DNA of 64,000 nucleotides, taken from NCBI RefSeq assembly GCF_021568285.1, contig NZ_JAKGTQ010000005.1:1-64000 (forward strand), given 5' to 3'. The position numbers and the translations under genes are program-made. The DNA is from Rheinheimera sp. UJ63. GTDB lineage: Bacteria > Pseudomonadota > Gammaproteobacteria > Enterobacterales > Alteromonadaceae. The notes beneath the pieces were generated by a model, which was not told the DNA's origin, did not search any database, and worked only from the letters and a program-made list of their open reading frames with translations. This document shows positions 22,080 to 62,766 of the stretch, piece by piece. Positions within the stretch are counted from its first letter, which is position 1, and the number at the start of each line of letters is the position of its first letter.

Positions 22080-23435
22080 ATGAAAACAGCCCGCGCACTA
22101 GTGCCGCTAATCGTGCTTAACTTGGCGTTTATTGCTTTTCATAGCCCTGCCGAACCGCCCGTCGTAACACCACAGGCGGCTCCATCCCTAACGCAGCCAG
22201 CGTTTAGCGGGCCCTCTCCTTGGCCTGATATTCTGCAACAACGTATCGCAACCTTATTGCCCAAAGCCATGGATCACACAGGCGTAACACATTGGTTCAT
22301 TGTTTGCCGTGAAAATGACAACGATCCACTCGCCAAACACGTTGGCTGTGAAAACGCTGGCGGTACTGCGGTGGTGCTGTTCAGTCGCACTCCAACAGGG
22401 GTGATGTCGCGTATTTTTTCACCCAGCAGTGAAGCGACCGCCTTAAAAGAGCTACAACGCTTTAATGAAGTGATTGAAGTAGCAAAACAACAAGATGCCA
22501 TTGCCGCAGCAGCAGCGTGGTTAAAAATACAAAACATTCGTGGAGAATTGGCGGTAAATAGTTTTAGTCAAAACCCACAAGCTGATGGTTTAAGCCACTC
22601 ACAATATTTAGCGCTGACAGCAGCACTGCAAGGCAGTGAGTTAACTCTCGTTGCCGCAGAGCCGCTCATTTATTACTGGCTTGCTCGTAAATTACCGGCG
22701 GAAGTGGCCATAATGGCACAAGCAGCTCGCCTGACATCAGACTGGCAATATGAAGCTTATCAGCACGTTATCCCCGGTGTTACCACAGATCTAGATATTG
22801 CGAATTATTTAAAACAAAAAATGGCAGAGGCCGGTGTGCAAGATGCTTGGGCATCAGATCAAAACCCTGCGGTTAACTCAGGCCCAGACCGTGGTCACTC
22901 TCATGCCACTCCTCGCGTGATCCAACCAGGCGATGTTATTCAAATCGATTTTGGTATTCGTGTGTTCGAGCATTGGGTGACGGATATTCAGCGCTTTGCT
23001 TATGTGCTCAAACCCGGCGAAAATAAAGCGCCAGCAGCCATTCAACATGCTTGGGATAGCGCCTTAGCAGGCGGTAGAGCAGCATTTGCGGCAATGAAGC
23101 CGGGGGTTACAGGAAACAGCGTGCATCAAGCGCAACTCGAAGTGATGGCCAAAGCAGGCTCACTGCCCGTCATGTGGAGCACGGGCCATCCGGTAGGCTA
23201 TGTCGCACATGATACTGGCCCGAATCTGGGCGTGCGCATTGCTTCCGAGCGGCAACTCGACGCTGGCATGACCTTTTCCTATGACGGCTTTTACAGTTGG
23301 TATTATCCAGGGAGCGCCCAACAGCAAACAAAAACGATTTCTGTAGAAGAAATGGTGGTGATTACCGATGCAGGCGCACAATTCTTAACAGCGCCACAGC
23401 AAGATTTAATCTTAATTGCTGCACCGACAAACTAA
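22080..23435 (+). CDS. Exported M24-family metallopeptidase (Xaa-Pro type)
   Basis: A 451-aa protein with AAGGA upstream and a signal peptide at 1-25. The C-terminal pita-bread domain carries the metal ligands: VIQIDFGI and HWVTDIQR aspartates, the histidine of GYVAHDTGPNLG, an acidic residue in MTFSYDGF where most family members have Glu, and the final Glu in VEEMVVITDAG. It should cleave N-terminal residues from peptides, perhaps before proline, in the periplasm. The substrate preference is inferred from the family. Confidence 0.85.
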   Translation: MKTARALVPLIVLNLAFIAFHSPAEPPVVTPQAAPSLTQPAFSGPSPWPDILQQRIATLLPKAMDHTGVTHWFIVCRENDNDPLAKHVGCENAGGTAVVLFSRTPTGVMSRIFSPSSEATALKELQRFNEVIEVAKQQDAIAAAAAWLKIQNIRGELAVNSFSQNPQADGLSHSQYLALTAALQGSELTLVAAEPLIYYWLARKLPAEVAIMAQAARLTSDWQYEAYQHVIPGVTTDLDIANYLKQKMAEAGVQDAWASDQNPAVNSGPDRGHSHATPRVIQPGDVIQIDFGIRVFEHWVTDIQRFAYVLKPGENKAPAAIQHAWDSALAGGRAAFAAMKPGVTGNSVHQAQLEVMAKAGSLPVMWSTGHPVGYVAHDTGPNLGVRIASERQLDAGMTFSYDGFYSWYYPGSAQQQTKTISVEEMVVITDAGAQFLTAPQQDLILIAAPTN

Positions 23436-23496
23436 AGCCGCAATAGTCGAGGTTTAGCTGCACGCTAGCCCCCTTTAGCCGAAAAGAGGAAAAAAC

Positions 23497-24768
23497 ATGG
23501 CCGCTTTAGTATCGATTGACCGTTTACGCTTTTTACTTAATCAGTTACACGAGCGGCTATGGGTGCGACCTTTAGCGGTGTGTTTATTGTCGATTGCGGC
23601 GGTTTTTATCGCCAAACTGGCCGATGGCACAGCATTGATTAAATGGGTGCCCCATATCAGCATCGACTCGGTGGAGAGCTTATTGTCGATTATGGCCTCT
23701 AGTATGTTAGTGATTGCAACGTTTTCGGTCACCTCGATGCTATCCGCCTACAACTCCGCCAGTAACTCGGCTACGCCTCGTGCATTTCGTTTAATGGTCG
23801 CCGACGATGTTTCACAAAATGCATTATCAACTTTTGTTGGCGCTTTTATTTTTAGTGTGGTGGCCATCGCGGCGCTAAAAAATAGCTTTTTTGACAAAGC
23901 AGGCTTATTTATTTTGTTTGCTCTGACCGTATTCGTATTTGGTTTGGTGATCACTGTCTTTGTCCGCTGGGTTGATCGGATTGCCCGACTGGGGCGGCTG
24001 GGCTCTACTATCGAAAAAGTGGAATTGGCCACCGCCGCGGCTTTAGAGCGCCGCCGCATCTTCCCAACATTGTGTGGTATCCCCGCTTCAGTTGACGCCA
24101 GCCAAGGCCACCCCGTTTTTGCAAACGAGATTGGCTATGTGCAACATATTGATATGTCTGCCATTCAAGAGTGGGCAGACAAAATGAATGTCCATGTTGA
24201 AGTAGCCGCACTACCGGGTACTTTTGCCGCACCGAATCGCGTACTCGCTTATGTGCATCAATTATCTGCAAAGGCCCAAGAACAAGACCACTGCATTGCC
24301 AAGGCGTTTCAAATTGGCCGTGAGCGCCTATTTGTCGATGATCCTCGCTTTGGTTTAGTCGTGTTATCGGAGATTGCTGGGCGAGCTCTGTCACCGGGAA
24401 TTAATGACCCCGGTACAGCCATCAATATCATTGGTGCCTTAGTGCGATTAATCGCCTTGTGGAATAAGCCACTCACCGACGCTGAGCAGCAACAAGCTAA
24501 GATTATTTTTCCGCGTGTCGCCGTGCCAGAGCTGACGATGCGAGATCTGTATGATGATGCCTTTACCGCTATCGCGCGCGATGGTGCCGGCACCCTCGAG
24601 GTGTCAATTCGCCTACAAAAGGGCTTACAATCATTGTCATTACTGGGCTCAGCGGCAAACCGTGAGGCGGCCGTTTATCATAGCCAGCGTGCGTTCACTC
24701 GCGCTGAGCAAGCTTTACTGCACGCTGACGACGTGCAGATCATTAAAGACAGCATCAAGCCAACTTAA
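23497..24768 (+). CDS. DUF2254 domain membrane protein
   Basis: A 423-aa protein with SD GAGGA. The N-terminal part has about four membrane helices (residues 23-45, 65-88, 105-130, 135-158), including the characteristic SMLVIATFSVTSMLSAYNSASNSATPRAFRLM segment; the C-terminal 250 residues are soluble. This matches DUF2254, a conserved inner-membrane family of unknown function. It is 61 bp downstream of the peptidase gene. Confidence 0.85.
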   Translation: MAALVSIDRLRFLLNQLHERLWVRPLAVCLLSIAAVFIAKLADGTALIKWVPHISIDSVESLLSIMASSMLVIATFSVTSMLSAYNSASNSATPRAFRLMVADDVSQNALSTFVGAFIFSVVAIAALKNSFFDKAGLFILFALTVFVFGLVITVFVRWVDRIARLGRLGSTIEKVELATAAALERRRIFPTLCGIPASVDASQGHPVFANEIGYVQHIDMSAIQEWADKMNVHVEVAALPGTFAAPNRVLAYVHQLSAKAQEQDHCIAKAFQIGRERLFVDDPRFGLVVLSEIAGRALSPGINDPGTAINIIGALVRLIALWNKPLTDAEQQQAKIIFPRVAVPELTMRDLYDDAFTAIARDGAGTLEVSIRLQKGLQSLSLLGSAANREAAVYHSQRAFTRAEQALLHADDVQIIKDSIKPT

Positions 24769-59010: not shown

Positions 59011-59060
59011 GGCCCCATAGCTTAGGTGAAAGGCGACCACTGTAAGTGGCGAGAAGTGAT
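59011..59060 (+). pseudogene. tRNA-like relic upstream of the tRNA-Ile gene
   Basis: The first 12 bases, GGCCCCATAGCT, are identical to the 5' end of the tRNA gene 68 bases downstream. They continue into a D-arm-like stretch and a short CCACT/AGTGG stem resembling a shortened anticodon arm, but there is no T-arm and no CCA. It is either the remnant of a tandem tRNA copy reduced by deletion or a footprint of past integration. Confidence 0.6.
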
Positions 59061-59078
59061 TTAACACATACATATAAT

Positions 59079-59155
59079 GGCCCCATAGCTCAGTTGGTTA
59101 GAGCGCTCGACTCATAATCGATCGGTCGCTGGTTCGAGTCCAGCTGGGGCCACCA
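59079..59155 (+). tRNA. ileX: tRNA-Ile (CAU anticodon, lysidine type)
   Basis: A 77-base cloverleaf: acceptor GGCCCCA/TGGGGCC, D-stem GCTC/GAGC, anticodon loop CTCATAA, T-stem GCTGG/CCAGC with TTCGAGT, encoded CCA end. The CAT anticodon could mean methionine or isoleucine; the body follows the E. coli minor tRNA-Ile2 gene (same acceptor, CGACTCATAATCG anticodon arm, GGTCGCTGG), so the C34 is expected to be modified to lysidine by TilS to read AUA. The outer pair of the anticodon stem is a C-T mismatch, where E. coli has G-U. Confidence 0.92.
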
Positions 59156-59391
59156 TTCTTAAGGGCTTGTCGTTTTACCTTACTGCCTGAAAATAGCTCG
59201 GTGCTACCTCTGTGATACCGACATGCTATAACTCCATCACACATTTGTAAAACACTGCGTTTTTTCGGTGGCTTATTTCGCTTTCAGATTATTTTGACAA
59301 CCTGAATAGCTAAACCTTCGAACTACCTGAGAACCCTCGATAGATCCGTTGATATTCTGGCGACAAGAACATACTATGAGATCTCACTCGA
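59156..59391. other. Non-coding stretch between the tRNA and the RT module
   Basis: About 235 bases with no convincing ORF on either strand and a lower GC content than the housekeeping genes to the left. It probably marks the left edge of the accessory island. A second copy of the tRNA 3' end (the usual integrase att duplication) is not found in the window. The last 45 bases hold the promoter described at 59349. Confidence 0.5.
59349..59377 (+). promoter_or_regulatory. Promoter for the structured RNA and RT gene
   Basis: TTGATA (59349-59354), 17 bases, TACTAT (59372-59377). The predicted start, near 59384, is just before the first hairpin at 59392. Confidence 0.5.
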
Positions 59392-59542
59392 CGTTAGGCA
59401 ACTGGAGTAATCCCGCGCCTGACGCTCCACTTGTCACTGTGTGATGCTACTTGGCGCGCTGTACGTACTCGTTGCATACAGTCGCCCTTAGTTAATTAGG
59501 CCACGCGCTTTGCGCTAGGACCAGTCGGGTGTGAATGTGGAG
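59392..59542 (+). ncRNA. Candidate structured non-coding RNA upstream of a reverse transcriptase
   Basis: Four stems are found by eye. I: CGTTAGGC (59392-59399) with GCCTGACG (59417-59424), one G-U pair. II, a closing stem: CTCCAC-TTG-TCAC (59425-59437) with GTGA-AT-GTGGAG (59531-59542), ten pairs around a small internal loop. III, inside II: GGCG-CG-CTGTA-C-GTA (59453-59467), loop CTCGT, then TGC-A-TACAG-T-CGCC (to 59486). IV, inside II: GGCC-AC-GCGC, loop TTT, GCGC-TA-GG-A-CC (59499-59522). Stems I and II abut and could stack. Stem II ends on the SD of the next ORF. The layout, structured RNA directly before an RT, recalls retrons and RT-based defence (DRT) systems; the RT does not look like a retron RT. 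It could alternatively be only a 5'-leader. Confidence 0.55.
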
Positions 59543-59552
59543 GGACATAGTT

Positions 59553-59867
59553 ATGAAAAATAAATCTAACTATGGCCTAGTTAAGGAACGCTTGATTATC
59601 GCGATTCTAGCAACAAAATTGGTTACTACCGTTTTGAAGCTGCTTCAAGAAATCGTTGTGTTCATTAACGTGGCTTTTAATTACAAGAACTGTTACAGAA
59701 TATGTTTTCAAGACGTTGGGACAATAAATTTTTACTTAAAAAGGACCTTTGGGTTTATGTCCCTAGTGATGAGATGTATGCATTCGGCAAAAAAATTCAT
59801 ACCACTTTGTCAATGCGTTGGAAAAGGCCAGCAAACTATTATCACCTCATCGCCGGTGGCCATGTAG
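59553..59867 (+). CDS. Leader ORF overlapping the reverse transcriptase gene; possible frameshifted N-terminus
   Basis: ATG 59553 is preceded by GGAGGG (59539-59544) at ideal spacing, better than anything before the RT start. Its first ~45 codons give a basic then hydrophobic helical peptide (KNKSNYGLVKERLIIAILAT, then KLVTTVLKLLQEIVVFINVAFN). Beyond codon 50 the frame overlaps the RT gene and looks unnatural. If one base were inserted (or a -1 shift made) between 59680 and 59710, the peptide would join the RT frame to give about 301 aa, the usual length of small bacterial RTs. So it is either a short separate leader peptide, or the true N-terminus of the RT split by a frameshift, programmed or accidental. 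Confidence 0.4.
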   Translation: MKNKSNYGLVKERLIIAILATKLVTTVLKLLQEIVVFINVAFNYKNCYRICFQDVGTINFYLKRTFGFMSLVMRCMHSAKKFIPLCQCVGKGQQTIITSSPVAM

Positions 59868-60457
59868 CAGCATTAAAGTACCATCAGTCTGACTCATATT
59901 TTGCAAAATTCGATATAAAGAACTTTTTTAACAGTATCAGTAAAACACGAATCACACGCTCAATAAAAAGTCTGGTCGGATATTCAGCTGCAAGGGAAAT
60001 AGCAACAGTTTCAACCGTTCCAGTATCACATCAGCAGAGTTTCAGTCACTGCCTCCCTTATGGCTTTGTTCAGTCGCCAATTTTGGCTTCCATTTGCTTA
60101 AGAGACAGCTATCTTGGACGTCTGATAGAACGAAAATTTAAGAGCTGTAAAATTAGTGTCTATATGGATGACATAGTAATTTCGGGAAATTCGGAGAGCG
60201 ATGTTGATGCACTTCTTAATGAACTCTTGAGTGCTGCGTCAAAATCACATTTTGAAGTTAACCCATCAAAAGTCAGACTCACCTCACATACCCTTGAAAG
60301 CTTTAATATCGAGTTATCTCAACAGACATTGAACATAACAGCTGATAGGCTTGATGCGTTTAAACAAGAGATCTTGAACACTGAAAACCAAGCAAAAATT
60401 GATGCAATTATCGGTTACGTGAAAACAGTAAACATCAGTCAAGCTGGCTCACTTTAA
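59702..60457 (+). CDS. Compact bacterial reverse transcriptase (UG/Abi/DRT-like)
   Basis: A 251-aa protein from ATG 59702, which has no SD; the frame is open back to 59681. RT motifs in order: FAKFDIKNFF with the first catalytic Asp at 71, LPYGFVQSPILASICL (118-133; the LPQG..SP block), YMDDIVISG (154-162, the catalytic pair D156/D157), and a closing FNIEL.....L.I segment in the place of the retron VTG block. The retron NAxxH and VTG signatures are missing, there is no DGR-type or group II maturase sequence, and no X/thumb extension is obvious. I take it for one of the 'unknown group' RTs, several of which are phage-defence enzymes. The candidate RNA and leader ORF lie just upstream. GC content is lower than in the flanking housekeeping genes, which suggests transfer. 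Confidence 0.85.
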   Translation: MFSRRWDNKFLLKKDLWVYVPSDEMYAFGKKIHTTLSMRWKRPANYYHLIAGGHVAALKYHQSDSYFAKFDIKNFFNSISKTRITRSIKSLVGYSAAREIATVSTVPVSHQQSFSHCLPYGFVQSPILASICLRDSYLGRLIERKFKSCKISVYMDDIVISGNSESDVDALLNELLSAASKSHFEVNPSKVRLTSHTLESFNIELSQQTLNITADRLDAFKQEILNTENQAKIDAIIGYVKTVNISQAGSL

Positions 60458-60706: not shown

Positions 60707-60718
60707 CTACAGTTTTAT
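60685..60718. mobile_element. Possible end of an insertion sequence
   Basis: TGTAGTGGTCAAGTAAAATT and the following GGCTACAGTTTT look like the terminal inverted repeat of IS elements beginning TGTAGTGG. It sits exactly where the OLD-like homology stops. No second end or transposase is visible in the window, so only a remnant is proposed. Confidence 0.3.
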
Positions 60719-60739
60719 AGTAAAGCCAGTATCTTTTCT

Positions 60740-60952
60740 CTGACTCAATTGGCTGTGAAATATCGTGCAGATGAAAATCTGAATCAGAAAAGTGTACTGT
60801 CGTCGAGCTCCCATGGCCAAATATAAAGCATCAATGATTGTAGATTTACCAGAGTCTCCTGGACCAATTAAACAATTAACTCTGGGCTTTGGCGACCAAA
60901 AAAGCTCTCGCACACCTCGGAAATTTTTTATCTCAACATATCTAACCAGCAT
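60740..60952 (-). pseudogene. OLD-family ATPase/endonuclease remnant
   Basis: Starting at ATG 60952 the frame reads VRYVEIKNFRGVRELFWSPK and then a Walker A GPGDSGKST (about residues 31-39) and IIDALYLAMGARR: the N-terminus of an OLD-type (Overcoming Lysogenization Defect) ATP-dependent nuclease. After TAC-ACT-TTT near 60797 the sense moves to another frame, where SDSDFHLHDISQPIE continues the OLD pattern, so a one-base frameshift has occurred. Homology then stops near 60740 at an IS-like sequence. No TOPRIM nuclease domain is left. Decayed defence gene. Confidence 0.7.
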
Positions 60953-61035: not shown

Positions 61036-62760
61036 TTACTCCAACTCTTCTTCAATTTCTTCGGCGTCAGAAAAATCTGGTTCAAACTCCAACTGGTGGC
61101 GCATCCACTCAGCAGCTACGGCTGGGTCGCTTTCAATCAGCTTCTCTATTTCAAGTGTTTCCCTGTACTGAGCGGCTGAGGCGGCCATTGTCCAACTACA
61201 GTTGTGGCCGCGTTCTTCAACATGGGTTCTGATATCAGCTATACCAATTTTGAAAAACTCTTTTTTGGGGTTTATTTTATTCATCTGAGCCCGAAAGAAG
61301 TATCGATGTAAGTCTCGCTCAAGTGCGGGAGCATCTTCACTCCAGATCATCGCATGTACATCAAACGGGAATGGGACACTAGCGTCGCCAAGTTCCCGAA
61401 CCCGATCAAGTGGCTCGAGCCGTCGTGTCATGCCGACTTTATAGACGTTTTCACCGAATGAGCCGACATTAGAGATCACGTAAACATGGCCAGTTTTGGT
61501 TTGCTGCGCCATAGATAATGCGCGTTGGTTTCTCGCTTCAGCTTCAGTCAGTTTACCCTGAAGTTCACTCAGCATTAGCTCGTATTCAGCCCGTTGCTCT
61601 TCAGTAGCCTTCTCAAGCTGGGTACGCATTTTATCAACAGCCTTTTGTATTGCAGCTTCTTCTTTCGCAGCATCTTTAATGGCGCGTTCAATCTCACGCC
61701 GAGCTTTCTGCTCTTCTCTTATCTGATCTCGTATTCTGCGCTGCTCTTCCCGCTCGTTTTCCCGCACCACATTGACCGCTGTAATCCAGTGCAGCTCATC
61801 AATCCGGGCCGCTAGGTATTCATCAGTAATTCGGGCACTTCTGAAAGCTTTACCGTTGTGATTAACAAGTGATGCTGCATCGCGTATTTCAGCTTCCAAC
61901 TTGCCAAAGTTATCTGTTTTGGAGCGCGATAAGATCGAATCAACCTTCCCGTTAAACGCATCAATAACAAAGTTGATAGCTGTTTTAGCCCGGCCTTTTT
62001 CAACATAATCACAGGTGGCCGCACGCTCGGTAGTCACAAGCAACTTTGTCCGCTCTCTTGCTAGTTTTAACTCCCGGCCTGCATCGTCAAAAGCGTACAT
62101 TTCTGCTAACTCGTCAAGCAAACCATAAGTGGGCTTCATATGCTCATCGCCATAGCCGTTCACGACGTTTTTCAATGCCTGTATCACACTCTCCAACCGG
62201 TCAGCTTCCCGCAAGGCCCGGTAAGCATCACCGGCAACTTGTTCGGCGCTGGCTTCTGCCTTGGCGATTATAATTGCCGCTTGTGCATTGGCTTCAGCCA
62301 GGAGAGCAGCTGATCGTTCTCGTTTCGACTTAGTATCAGCGTTAGTGTCTCGCCGAAGCACATCGGCTTCCAACTGGGCTTTAGCAATTATCGAACTAGC
62401 CTCATTGTTGGCTCGCTGAAGTAAATCGGTGATTTGTTGCTGGCATTCGTTTTCTCGGGCAAGAATTTCAGCCTTTAAACGATCAAGCTCTAAAGTGGTA
62501 TCCCGAACATAAGTAAACTGAGATAACGACTTAACCTCGGCGATTAAGTCGGCAACCTGGCTGGTAAGTTTGTCCCTTACAGATTGAAGTGACGCAAAAT
62601 CTTGAGTTAATGCAGTGTGAGTTAACTTAAGGTCAGTGTATTCCTCAGTTTTCTGCTTTAAGCTGCTTTCATAAGAATCACGGTTAACCGTAAGCCGTCT
62701 AATCAGTTCAATTATGATAATAAAAAAGACAATGGCAATTACAACACTCAACTTGTCCAT
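61036..62760 (-). CDS. Membrane-anchored DUF4041/GIY-YIG nuclease (SNIPE-like anti-phage protein)
   Basis: A 574-aa protein; ATG 62760 has GGAG six bases upstream (GTG 62766 is also possible). Order of parts: one N-terminal membrane helix (about 6-24), long coiled coil (30-180), a DUF4041-like region (about 190-330: VIQALKNVVNGYGDEHMKP...KLARERTKLLVTTERAATCDYVE and the FVIDAFNGKVDSILSRSK core), a second charged coiled coil (335-420), and a GIY-YIG (T5orf172/Mug113-type) nuclease at about 425-520 (HVYVISNVGSFGENVYKVGMTRR, catalytic Arg in DRVRELG, Glu in APALERDLHRYF). The same layout describes SNIPE, a membrane nuclease reported to cut phage DNA as it enters. It is a single gene, flanked by 23-bp repeats, next to an RT and an OLD relic. 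Confidence 0.82.
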   Translation of the reverse strand: MDKLSVVIAIVFFIIIIELIRRLTVNRDSYESSLKQKTEEYTDLKLTHTALTQDFASLQSVRDKLTSQVADLIAEVKSLSQFTYVRDTTLELDRLKAEILARENECQQQITDLLQRANNEASSIIAKAQLEADVLRRDTNADTKSKRERSAALLAEANAQAAIIIAKAEASAEQVAGDAYRALREADRLESVIQALKNVVNGYGDEHMKPTYGLLDELAEMYAFDDAGRELKLARERTKLLVTTERAATCDYVEKGRAKTAINFVIDAFNGKVDSILSRSKTDNFGKLEAEIRDAASLVNHNGKAFRSARITDEYLAARIDELHWITAVNVVRENEREEQRRIRDQIREEQKARREIERAIKDAAKEEAAIQKAVDKMRTQLEKATEEQRAEYELMLSELQGKLTEAEARNQRALSMAQQTKTGHVYVISNVGSFGENVYKVGMTRRLEPLDRVRELGDASVPFPFDVHAMIWSEDAPALERDLHRYFFRAQMNKINPKKEFFKIGIADIRTHVEERGHNCSWTMAASAAQYRETLEIEKLIESDPAVAAEWMRHQLEFEPDFSDAEEIEEELE

Positions 62761-62766
62761 AAGCAC

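Follow-up and report, generated by a model that had tools for sequence, protein, structure and literature searches.

As the available portions of the cited sources describe them, retrons combine a reverse transcriptase (RT), a non-coding RNA (ncRNA) and an effector, and fall into 13 types (PMC12548924) or sixteen subtypes (PMC13405049). The partners of the RT range from a HEPN and winged-helix protein in type IX (Kva2) (PMC13405049) to a DNA-binding protein and small proteins in type VI, which is found in Peduovirinae (PMC8541194). Among the defence-associated reverse transcriptase (DRT) systems, DRT2 consists of an RT with a dedicated, pseudoknotted ncRNA (PMC12039810). Here we analyse a 64,000-nucleotide stretch of Rheinheimera sp. 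UJ63 (contig NZ_JAKGTQ010000005.1, positions 1 to 64,000; hereafter the window), in which a promoter-like site, a structured RNA, a short open reading frame (ORF) and a 251-residue RT follow one another on the + strand.

Judged by its sequence anatomy, this module resembles a retron, but its RT lacks the retron motifs and fits none of the types, and we assign it to no retron type. On balance, we lean towards reading it as a retron-like pair of RT and RNA in which a membrane peptide is the candidate effector and the RNA would gate translation of the RT. The narrower statement that the RT has a cognate retron-like RNA deserves more confidence than this whole reading, and the suggestion from sequence that the peptide is the toxin deserves less.

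The module resembles retrons such as Ec86/Eco1, Ec78/Eco7, Ec83, Eco8 and Ec67/Eco2 in its upstream ncRNA on the same strand, the inverted repeat a1/a2, the usual TAG, a variable stem and the fold of the RT. It differs from them in an RT N-terminus about 47 residues shorter than that of Ec86, in FN in place of VTG, in lacking NAxxH, in its place outside the PADLOC types, in a tiny overlapping peptide where an enzyme effector would stand, and in a pseudoknot helix, b1/b2. As far as the available text on type VI goes, some members likewise lie in P2-like phages and the PADLOC model RT_VI gives the lowest listed E-value (1.9e-24), whereas the small ORF of the window has no helix-turn-helix match and the RT_VI score is far below what our calibration leads one to expect of true members. 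The HEPN and winged-helix partners described for type IX, and the partners described for type VI, differ from the peptide found here. With the DRT systems (DRT2, DRT3, DRT9 and DRT10), as partly documented in our sources, the module shares an RT with a dedicated ncRNA, pseudoknotted in DRT2, but it has a shorter RT, matches DRT models weakly and carries a retron-style a1/a2.

Results

A covarying retron-like RNA precedes the reverse transcriptase

As a single query, the RT of the window gave no match in genome and viral contigs; an alignment query retrieved relatives, encoded in 104 of 175 pattern-matching genome-contig stretches (best 80 taken) and in 50 of 82 viral-contig stretches. We gathered 143 loci, every one with a tblastn match. 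One without a start codon (L073), three with less than 200 nt upstream (L092, L102, L103), 26 with identical upstream sequence and three that are broken or incomplete (L004, L012, L090) were dropped, which left 110 analysed loci with RT starts picked by script close to the expected position.

At most analysed loci the same module stands ahead of the RT: an ncRNA of about 125-200 nt, closed by a1 and a2, directly upstream of the RT gene and on the same strand. The upstream sequences of distant members have a common layout and little common sequence, and the arms themselves read CCTGACG/CGTCAGG, CTCGACG/CGTCGAG, TCCCGGC/GCCGGGA, TCTTGGC/GCCAAGA, CCCCAGC/GCTGGGG or TTTCAGCAA/TTGCTGAA, with TAG just after a1 in each of these examples. 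Retrons have their branch G in a UAG context. In the window, a1 (CACTCGAC, 59385..59392, +) is followed by TTAGG, with TAGG directly after a1 at 59395..59398 (+), and by analogy with retrons G59397 is the predicted branch or priming G; a2 (GTCGGGTG) lies at 59524..59531 (+). The structured RNA that the earlier note had placed at 59392-59542 is real, scoring 77.7 bits (E 2.9e-18) with a covariance model of 32 loci of which the window is itself one, but the a1/a2 boundaries shift its span to 59385..59531 (+).

Strict criteria for a1/a2 plus TAG were passed by 77 of the 110 loci, compared with 7-12 of 110 random sequences in five runs of first-order Markov samples with like dinucleotide make-up. 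The 32 loci of the alignment were chosen by us from the 57 that have the GCGC hairpin among these 77, and the helix-plus-TAG script gave a bonus for TAG, so that a1/a2 pairing and TAG in the 32 are partly a product of selection. Within this set, seven of eight a1/a2 pairs are changed on both sides, the covariation score of the whole structure is 0.312 against 0.173 in shuffled alignments (reached by 0 of 500), and sliding the a1/a2 partners by 1-3 columns lowers pairing from 96.7% to at most 43%. Little or no variation is seen in TAGG (TAG having been a selection criterion), in a GTCAC...GTGA hairpin and in the GCGC hairpin; in the window the first hairpin, GTCAC...GTGAT, occupies 59433..59445 (+) and the 3' GCGC hairpin, between b1 and a2, 59505..59515 (+).

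Because the 32 loci had been picked by the helix-plus-TAG script, we added controls for selection. In seven unselected loci aligned by sequence alone, 52 of 56 a1/a2 cells are paired, and pairing across loci amounts to 256 of 336 among the seven and 76% with the 32. Ten loci outside the model (L048, L038, L073, L113, L017, L068, L031, L098, L039 and L097) score 61-97 bits, all upstream of an RT match, L048 being close kin of the model row L049. Over 75 sources, window included, the model has 42 matches at E up to 1; it is weaker in enteric and some other loci and misses most rhizobial loci, several of which carry an a1/a2 with TAG of their own. The only other match of the model in the Rheinheimera genome has an E-value of 0.18, and Rfam gave no match at E≤1 within 59340-59720 and only tRNA otherwise. 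Covariation at other loci is clearly present, and with it the earlier proposal of a dedicated RNA belonging to this RT, in a module outside the scanned models, is well supported.

Between the GTCAC hairpin and b1 the RNA varies in length and content. Two loci carry tandem-repeat expansions of GGGACTCCT-like units in this variable stem (L109:2641-2821 and L144:2631-2818). Such variation and repeats are what would be expected of a template stem.

Ahead of a1 stands the candidate sigma-70-type promoter TTGATA-17-TACTAT (59349..59377, +). The earlier note was right that a promoter-like site is present, with 9 of 12 consensus matches, but taken alone it is at chance level, with four such sites against 3.0 expected locally. 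Across 75 loci, high -10 scores cluster 20-23 nt 5' of TAG: those four offsets together hold 48 of them, and every other offset between -60 and -11 holds 0-8. A -10 box positioned 20-23 nt before TAG would place the start of transcription near a1, and in the window the predicted start is at a1 or immediately ahead of it.

A conserved peptide overlaps the start of the reverse transcriptase

The short ORF between RNA and RT (104 aa, 59553..59867, +) has, as previously noted, a strong Shine-Dalgarno (SD) sequence: GGAGG lies upstream of the ATG at 59553, in an SD region at 59538..59546 (+). Its family is coding, and what had been taken as an incidental ORF is instead a conserved peptide, the 3' end of whose coding part base-pairs with the ncRNA. 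All 110 analysed loci have an ATG ORF ahead of the RT and overlapping it. An ORF extending to the region of the RT start was a requirement of the script, and none of the 113 loci with sufficient upstream DNA was without one, the ORFs of the three broken loci being spurious. The conserved part comprises 31-54 codons and ends in N, S, H or Y followed by Y, or in NW, where conservation stops sharply. In the window it covers residues 1-44 (59553-59684), and the remainder is an unconserved tail overlapping the RT gene.

With the last eight codons excluded, the ratio of nonsynonymous to synonymous substitution rates (dN/dS), computed over pairs that are not independent, is 0.35 for the reading frame of the peptide; the other two frames give 0.74 and 1.13. 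The helical moment is 0.30 compared with 0.17 for shuffled peptides, 47 of 107 being individually below 0.05, and the N-terminus is basic in 96 of 107. From its sequence the peptide looks amphipathic and basic, a membrane-type candidate. So far as our partial sources go, this short, basic, amphipathic, apparently membrane-type product with putative RNA-level control is reminiscent of type I toxin-antitoxin peptides such as TisB and Hok, but it differs from them in being tied to an RT and a retron-like ncRNA, and no antisense RNA is known for it. In Hok, the RNA-level control involves a fold-back.

At none of the 110 loci does the peptide stop before the RT start; by chance, a stop would be expected there at 18.7 of the 73 loci that have a gap. 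An SD-like sequence stands ahead of the peptide at 95 of 110 loci and ahead of the RT at 42 of 110, with a background of 12%. Since the stop never precedes the RT start and the SD favours the peptide over the RT, the overlap looks, at sequence level, like selected translational coupling. A frameshift fusion of peptide and RT was considered and rejected: the frame offset is +1 in 92, +2 in 16 and 0 in 2 of the 110 loci, which leaves no single programmed shift. The two loci with offset 0 form a natural in-frame peptide-RT union, a 302-residue frame in which b1/b2 is kept (L129:2842-3747 and L138:2842-3747).

The end of the peptide coding region pairs with the RNA

At codons -6 and -5, counted from the conserved end, the third base is nearly fixed, with C in 65 of 75 loci and G in 64 of 75. 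A purely protein-level explanation of the conserved NY was partly rejected, as nucleotide conservation stops sharply after it and the third positions before it are near-fixed. These third positions led us to suspect a constraint on the RNA and so to b2. This terminal portion of the conserved coding stretch pairs with b1, just 5' of the GCGC hairpin in the ncRNA. In the window, b1 (59488..59505, +) and b2 (59669..59684, +; the last codons, ...NY, of the conserved part) read UUAGUUAAUUAGGCCACG/CGUGGCUUUUAAUUAC, and 17 nt separate b2 from the RT start codon. Other examples are UUGGCUGACGACC/GGUCGUCAGCUAU in L141 and UUGGUUAGUGGC/GCCACUAACUAC in L074.

Over 74 non-redundant loci, b1 forms a duplex of -17.75 kcal/mol with the b2 of its own locus and one of -12.70 kcal/mol across loci (permutation p 1e-4). 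The controls were the reverse complement of b2 and three segments nearby, for which own and cross-locus values differ by no more than 0.65. For its ncRNA, the b2 of the same locus comes first in 17 of 74 loci and is among the top three in 29; that of the window ranks 13th. A duplex of -12 kcal/mol or lower, found at 106 of 110 loci, was not used as evidence, cross-locus pairs averaging -12.7. Alignments built blind to the pairing show 94.0% of b1/b2 cells paired in the 32 loci, with 7 of 12 pairs changed on both sides; in 36 other loci, chosen by clade and mostly alphaproteobacterial, the figures are 91.9% and 8 of 12. One member per set (L118 and L050) supplied the paired columns, a choice that benefits the percentage of paired cells more than the count of double changes. 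In either set the covariation score is reached by 0 of 500 shuffles, with a sharp loss on sliding.

Relative to the chosen RT start, the end of b2 lies between 46 nt before it and 2 nt beyond it at 109 of 110 loci; at the remaining one it lies 17 nt beyond a start that is uncertain. With b1 inside the a1-a2 span and b2 outside it, the two helices form a pseudoknot, and with b2 at the RT start the helix should block initiation on the RT except when a ribosome translates through the peptide frame.

This geometry also suits an account in which the peptide is a leader only, whose translation opens b1/b2 so that the RT is made, its sequence being idle and the effector unlinked or lacking. Such a leader would overlap the RT start strictly and bring b2 next to it, as is the case; the near-fixed third positions are what an RNA-level signal would show, and 68 of 110 RTs have no SD-like sequence ahead of them. 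However, purifying selection on amino acids outside b2, at the dN/dS of 0.35 given above, exceeds what a leader needs, as does the conserved amphipathic character with its basic N-terminus. We regard this account as unlikely, and as the alternative that survives best.

The reverse transcriptase is compact and lies outside the PADLOC retron types

The RT of the window (251 aa, 59702..60457, +) matches Pfam RVT_1 (E 7.2e-21) and carries D71 and Y154-M-D-D157. Over the analysed loci the median length is 255 aa, and aligned members are 27-51% identical to the window RT. VTG and NAxxH blocks mark retron RTs. Their absence, reported in the earlier note along with D71 and YMDD, is borne out by the family: VTG occurs in 1 of 110 members, being replaced by FN, and NAxxH in 3 of 110. 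Features of group II introns were looked for in Pfam, which returned RVT_1 and one sub-cut-off match on the RT, and no maturase domain; the Rfam scan of 59340-59720 likewise gave no intron RNA.

PADLOC, NCBIfam and PHROGs models match the family only as general RT or retron domains. When 58 members were scanned, RT_VI had the lowest E-value (1.9e-24) among the 25 PADLOC families listed of 69, and the lowest for the window RT was 4.5e-19. For calibration, six retron RTs from related genomes score their own PADLOC type at 1e-115 to 1e-164 and a type XI retron RT at 3.5e-170; all seven, none of them type VI, score RT_VI at 1e-31 to 1e-53. The RT family stands outside the retron types that PADLOC covers. 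DRT models are weak on the window RT (UG33, the best listed, 1.7e-13; Drt3a, 4e-11), below its general retron and CRISPR RT matches.

A profile search with the family is led by Ec86, Kva2 and Eco8, and aligns family residues 12-249 with residues 59-297 of the Ec86 RT, the family RT being about 47 residues shorter at the N-terminus. An AlphaFold model of the RT has a mean predicted local distance difference test (pLDDT) score of 96.8. The earlier note had suggested a structure search against the UG and DRT families; in the Foldseek search of this model against the PDB, ranks 1-16 by E-value are all retron RTs (template modelling (TM) score by query length 0.62-0.76), and DRT9, group II, G2L4, diversity-generating retroelement and DRT2 RTs come after them. 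By E-value, then, the predicted fold and the profile are closest to retron RTs. A tree was built from 33 rows: 24 of the family, the seven retron RTs and a pair of group-II-like RTs. The family is a single clade in it (100/100), with a stem 3.62 changes per column long, compared with 3.22 for the group-II-like pair. Because the reference set is small and the bootstrap is not settled, the tree gives the depth of the clade rather than its sister group, and lends by itself no support to retron ancestry.

The short N-terminus raises another explanation for the peptide, namely that an N-terminal helix or subunit of the RT has become detached as this peptide and stands in for the roughly 47 residues by which Ec86 is longer. 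The profile sets family residue 12 at Ec86 residue 59, and two natural in-frame fusions exist (L129 and L138). Yet in an AlphaFold model of the L129 fusion, itself weak as its alignment has 49 rows with only nine covering the peptide, residues 5-49 have pLDDT below 50 and are undocked while the RT body is mostly above 90. In addition, the RT alone folds completely in its own model, and in our judgement the peptide is more hydrophobic and variable than a fixed interface would be. We consider a detached subunit quite improbable.

Slightly less probable still is a DRT-like template or scaffold RNA with no branched retron primer (for example, protein-primed), in which a1/a2 merely delimits the fold. 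The RT is far from known retron models, TAG is absent at some loci, and a pseudoknotted ncRNA is reported for DRT2 in the part of PMC12039810 at hand. Against this, a1/a2 with TAG after a1 is the layout of retrons and is found at most loci, Foldseek ranks retron RTs before DRT9 and DRT2, and DRT models match weakly. Of the earlier interpretation, which set retron and DRT systems side by side, the part that assigns a specific RNA to the RT is well supported, while a1/a2, TAG and the RT matches make the module retron-like rather than DRT-like. That the RNA is a 5' leader by which the RT mRNA regulates itself, and not a template, agrees with b1/b2 lying at the RT start but is very improbable, since control of a ribosome-binding site has no need of a1/a2 and the region from the GTCAC hairpin to b1 varies, with repeat expansions in L109 and L144, as a template stem does.

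The module is sporadic and found on mobile elements

The RT family spans alpha-, beta-, gamma- and zetaproteobacteria, plasmids, and prophages and phages, and one member comes from a metagenome-assembled genome labelled Roizmanbacteria (L039). Among 98 relatives including the genome of the window, the only family match is that genome's own; the second match at E≤1e-10 (G015) is an RT 23% identical. One further genome among 369 of the class carries a family member, and an enteric query against 5426 E. coli genomes found only a fragment of about 60 bases in one genome. Judged by this sequence survey, it is a sporadic gene, as in mobile elements. Searched with the RT, the genome of the window gave a single further RT-like place, 28% identical over part (E 1.9e-4). 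The second RT of this genome, distant and 474 aa long (L002/L159, contig C18, ~23290-23985), has a general RT model as its best PADLOC match (1.4e-65).

Fifteen plasmid records match the RT, nine with at least 80% query coverage; the other six look like different RTs. Thirteen Klebsiella phage records match as well, and the two inspected are Peduoviridae. In L014 the module follows the tail genes of a P2-like phage genome. In L111 a CI-like repressor gene lies upstream, a setting that may compare with the cI-integrase interval of a P2-related phage of Vibrionaceae, which PMC9122126 reports as an antiviral hotspot. Toxin-antitoxin-like and abortive-infection genes adjoin the module at two plasmid loci (L006 and L007). 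On a conjugative plasmid of Rhizobium jaguaris (L012) the RT is broken into two pieces and the upstream DNA is still 87% like that of L013, which shows decay of the module. A type XI retron, an RT-protease fusion, was found on a Bacillus arachidis plasmid (L016:3839-5644, 3.5e-170).

In the window, a sigma-70-like gene and a tRNA-Met gene (59079-59155) lie upstream of the module. Downstream, both neighbours named in the earlier note are present. A gene at 61036-62766 (-) with DUF4041 and T5orf172/MUG113 domains matches PADLOC PD-Lambda-1 (E 1.4e-113), which we take to be the SNIPE system, and 60707-60952 (-) encodes an 81-aa N-terminal fragment of a GajA/OLD-type ATPase (E 1.6e-23), apparently a relic. 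The 3' end of the tRNA is duplicated (47-54 bp) on the same contig, 7-13 kb from the tRNA, in G006, G010, G018 and G023, that is, in at least 4 of 31 same-genus genomes; none of the matches listed is such a copy in the genome of the window. As this 3' end recurs 7-13 kb away in relatives, the tRNA-Met site appears from sequence to be an island attachment or insertion site. A degenerate 5' tRNA-like copy (~59013-59050) lies just ahead of the intact tRNA-Met.

Discussion

The sequence itself supplies the parts of the module, their order, the covariation, the coding constraint, the strict overlap and, as a prediction, the fold of the RT. The priming, cDNA, gating, toxicity and defence that we infer from these parts would connect them as follows. 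A single promoter would give a transcript starting at a1, in which the a1/a2 helix closes the structured RNA that the compact RT binds. By analogy with retrons, the G that follows a1 would be the priming site, and the RT would turn a portion of the sequence lying 5' of a2 into a small DNA. The peptide would be translated from its strong SD, and because its frame overruns the RT start, translation of the RT would be coupled to it; the b1/b2 pseudoknot would hold RT initiation closed until peptide-frame ribosomes open it or copying consumes b1. An RT copying from a2 leftwards would have to copy b1, freeing b2 and so linking reverse transcription to translation. The peptide would be the likeliest effector, acting at the membrane, restrained by the RT-RNA/DNA complex and released by phage attack. 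More tentatively, and at odds we would call doubtful, the module may represent a new class of reverse-transcribing immune system whose RNA template serves as a base-paired lock on translation of its own RT and membrane peptide, which b1 copying or its removal by phage would open at b2; a single covarying pseudoknot would then tie reverse transcription and the synthesis of toxin and RT together. A role in defence is suggested by circumstantial evidence, namely phage and plasmid locations and a SNIPE-type neighbour.

Several observations count against this retron-like reading with its peptide effector and gated RT. On the RNA side, 33 of 110 loci fail the strict a1/a2 and TAG criteria, and of the seven unselected loci, four have TAG after a1, two lack it and one is not resolved. 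The variety of further pair types in b1/b2 is unexceptional, being reached by 173 and 35 of 500 shuffles in the two sets, and with the script's anchoring b1/b2 is absent from L106 and L110 (ranks 74 and 72 of 74), probably because an earlier HY or SY was taken. For the peptide of the window, the only one searched, PADLOC, Pfam and NCBIfam gave nothing at E≤1, and L129 and L138 keep peptide and RT in one frame (2 of 110), which a separate effector would not require. The RT family lacks the retron VTG and NAxxH blocks and matches RT_VI more weakly than do seven retron RTs of other types. Group II RTs reach a TM score of 0.77, no lower than the retron RTs, and in the tree the group-II-like pair was placed within the retrons, with the family apart on its long stem. 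For defence, finally, the evidence is one of location.

In the literature searched we found no description of the RT family, of the peptide with its conservation and its overlap of the RT start, or of the b1/b2 pseudoknot helix, in retrons or elsewhere; the 2020 retron classification may mention the clade. Annotated plasmids name the RT merely 'reverse transcriptase domain-containing protein' and the peptide is too short for annotation, so the clade is easy to miss. If our reading is correct, it would add to the retron-like systems a deep branch spread over Proteobacteria, and provide a very compact RT with its natural RNA, useful for DNA-making tools. It would also raise the question of whether reverse transcription directly switches the translation of an effector in cis.

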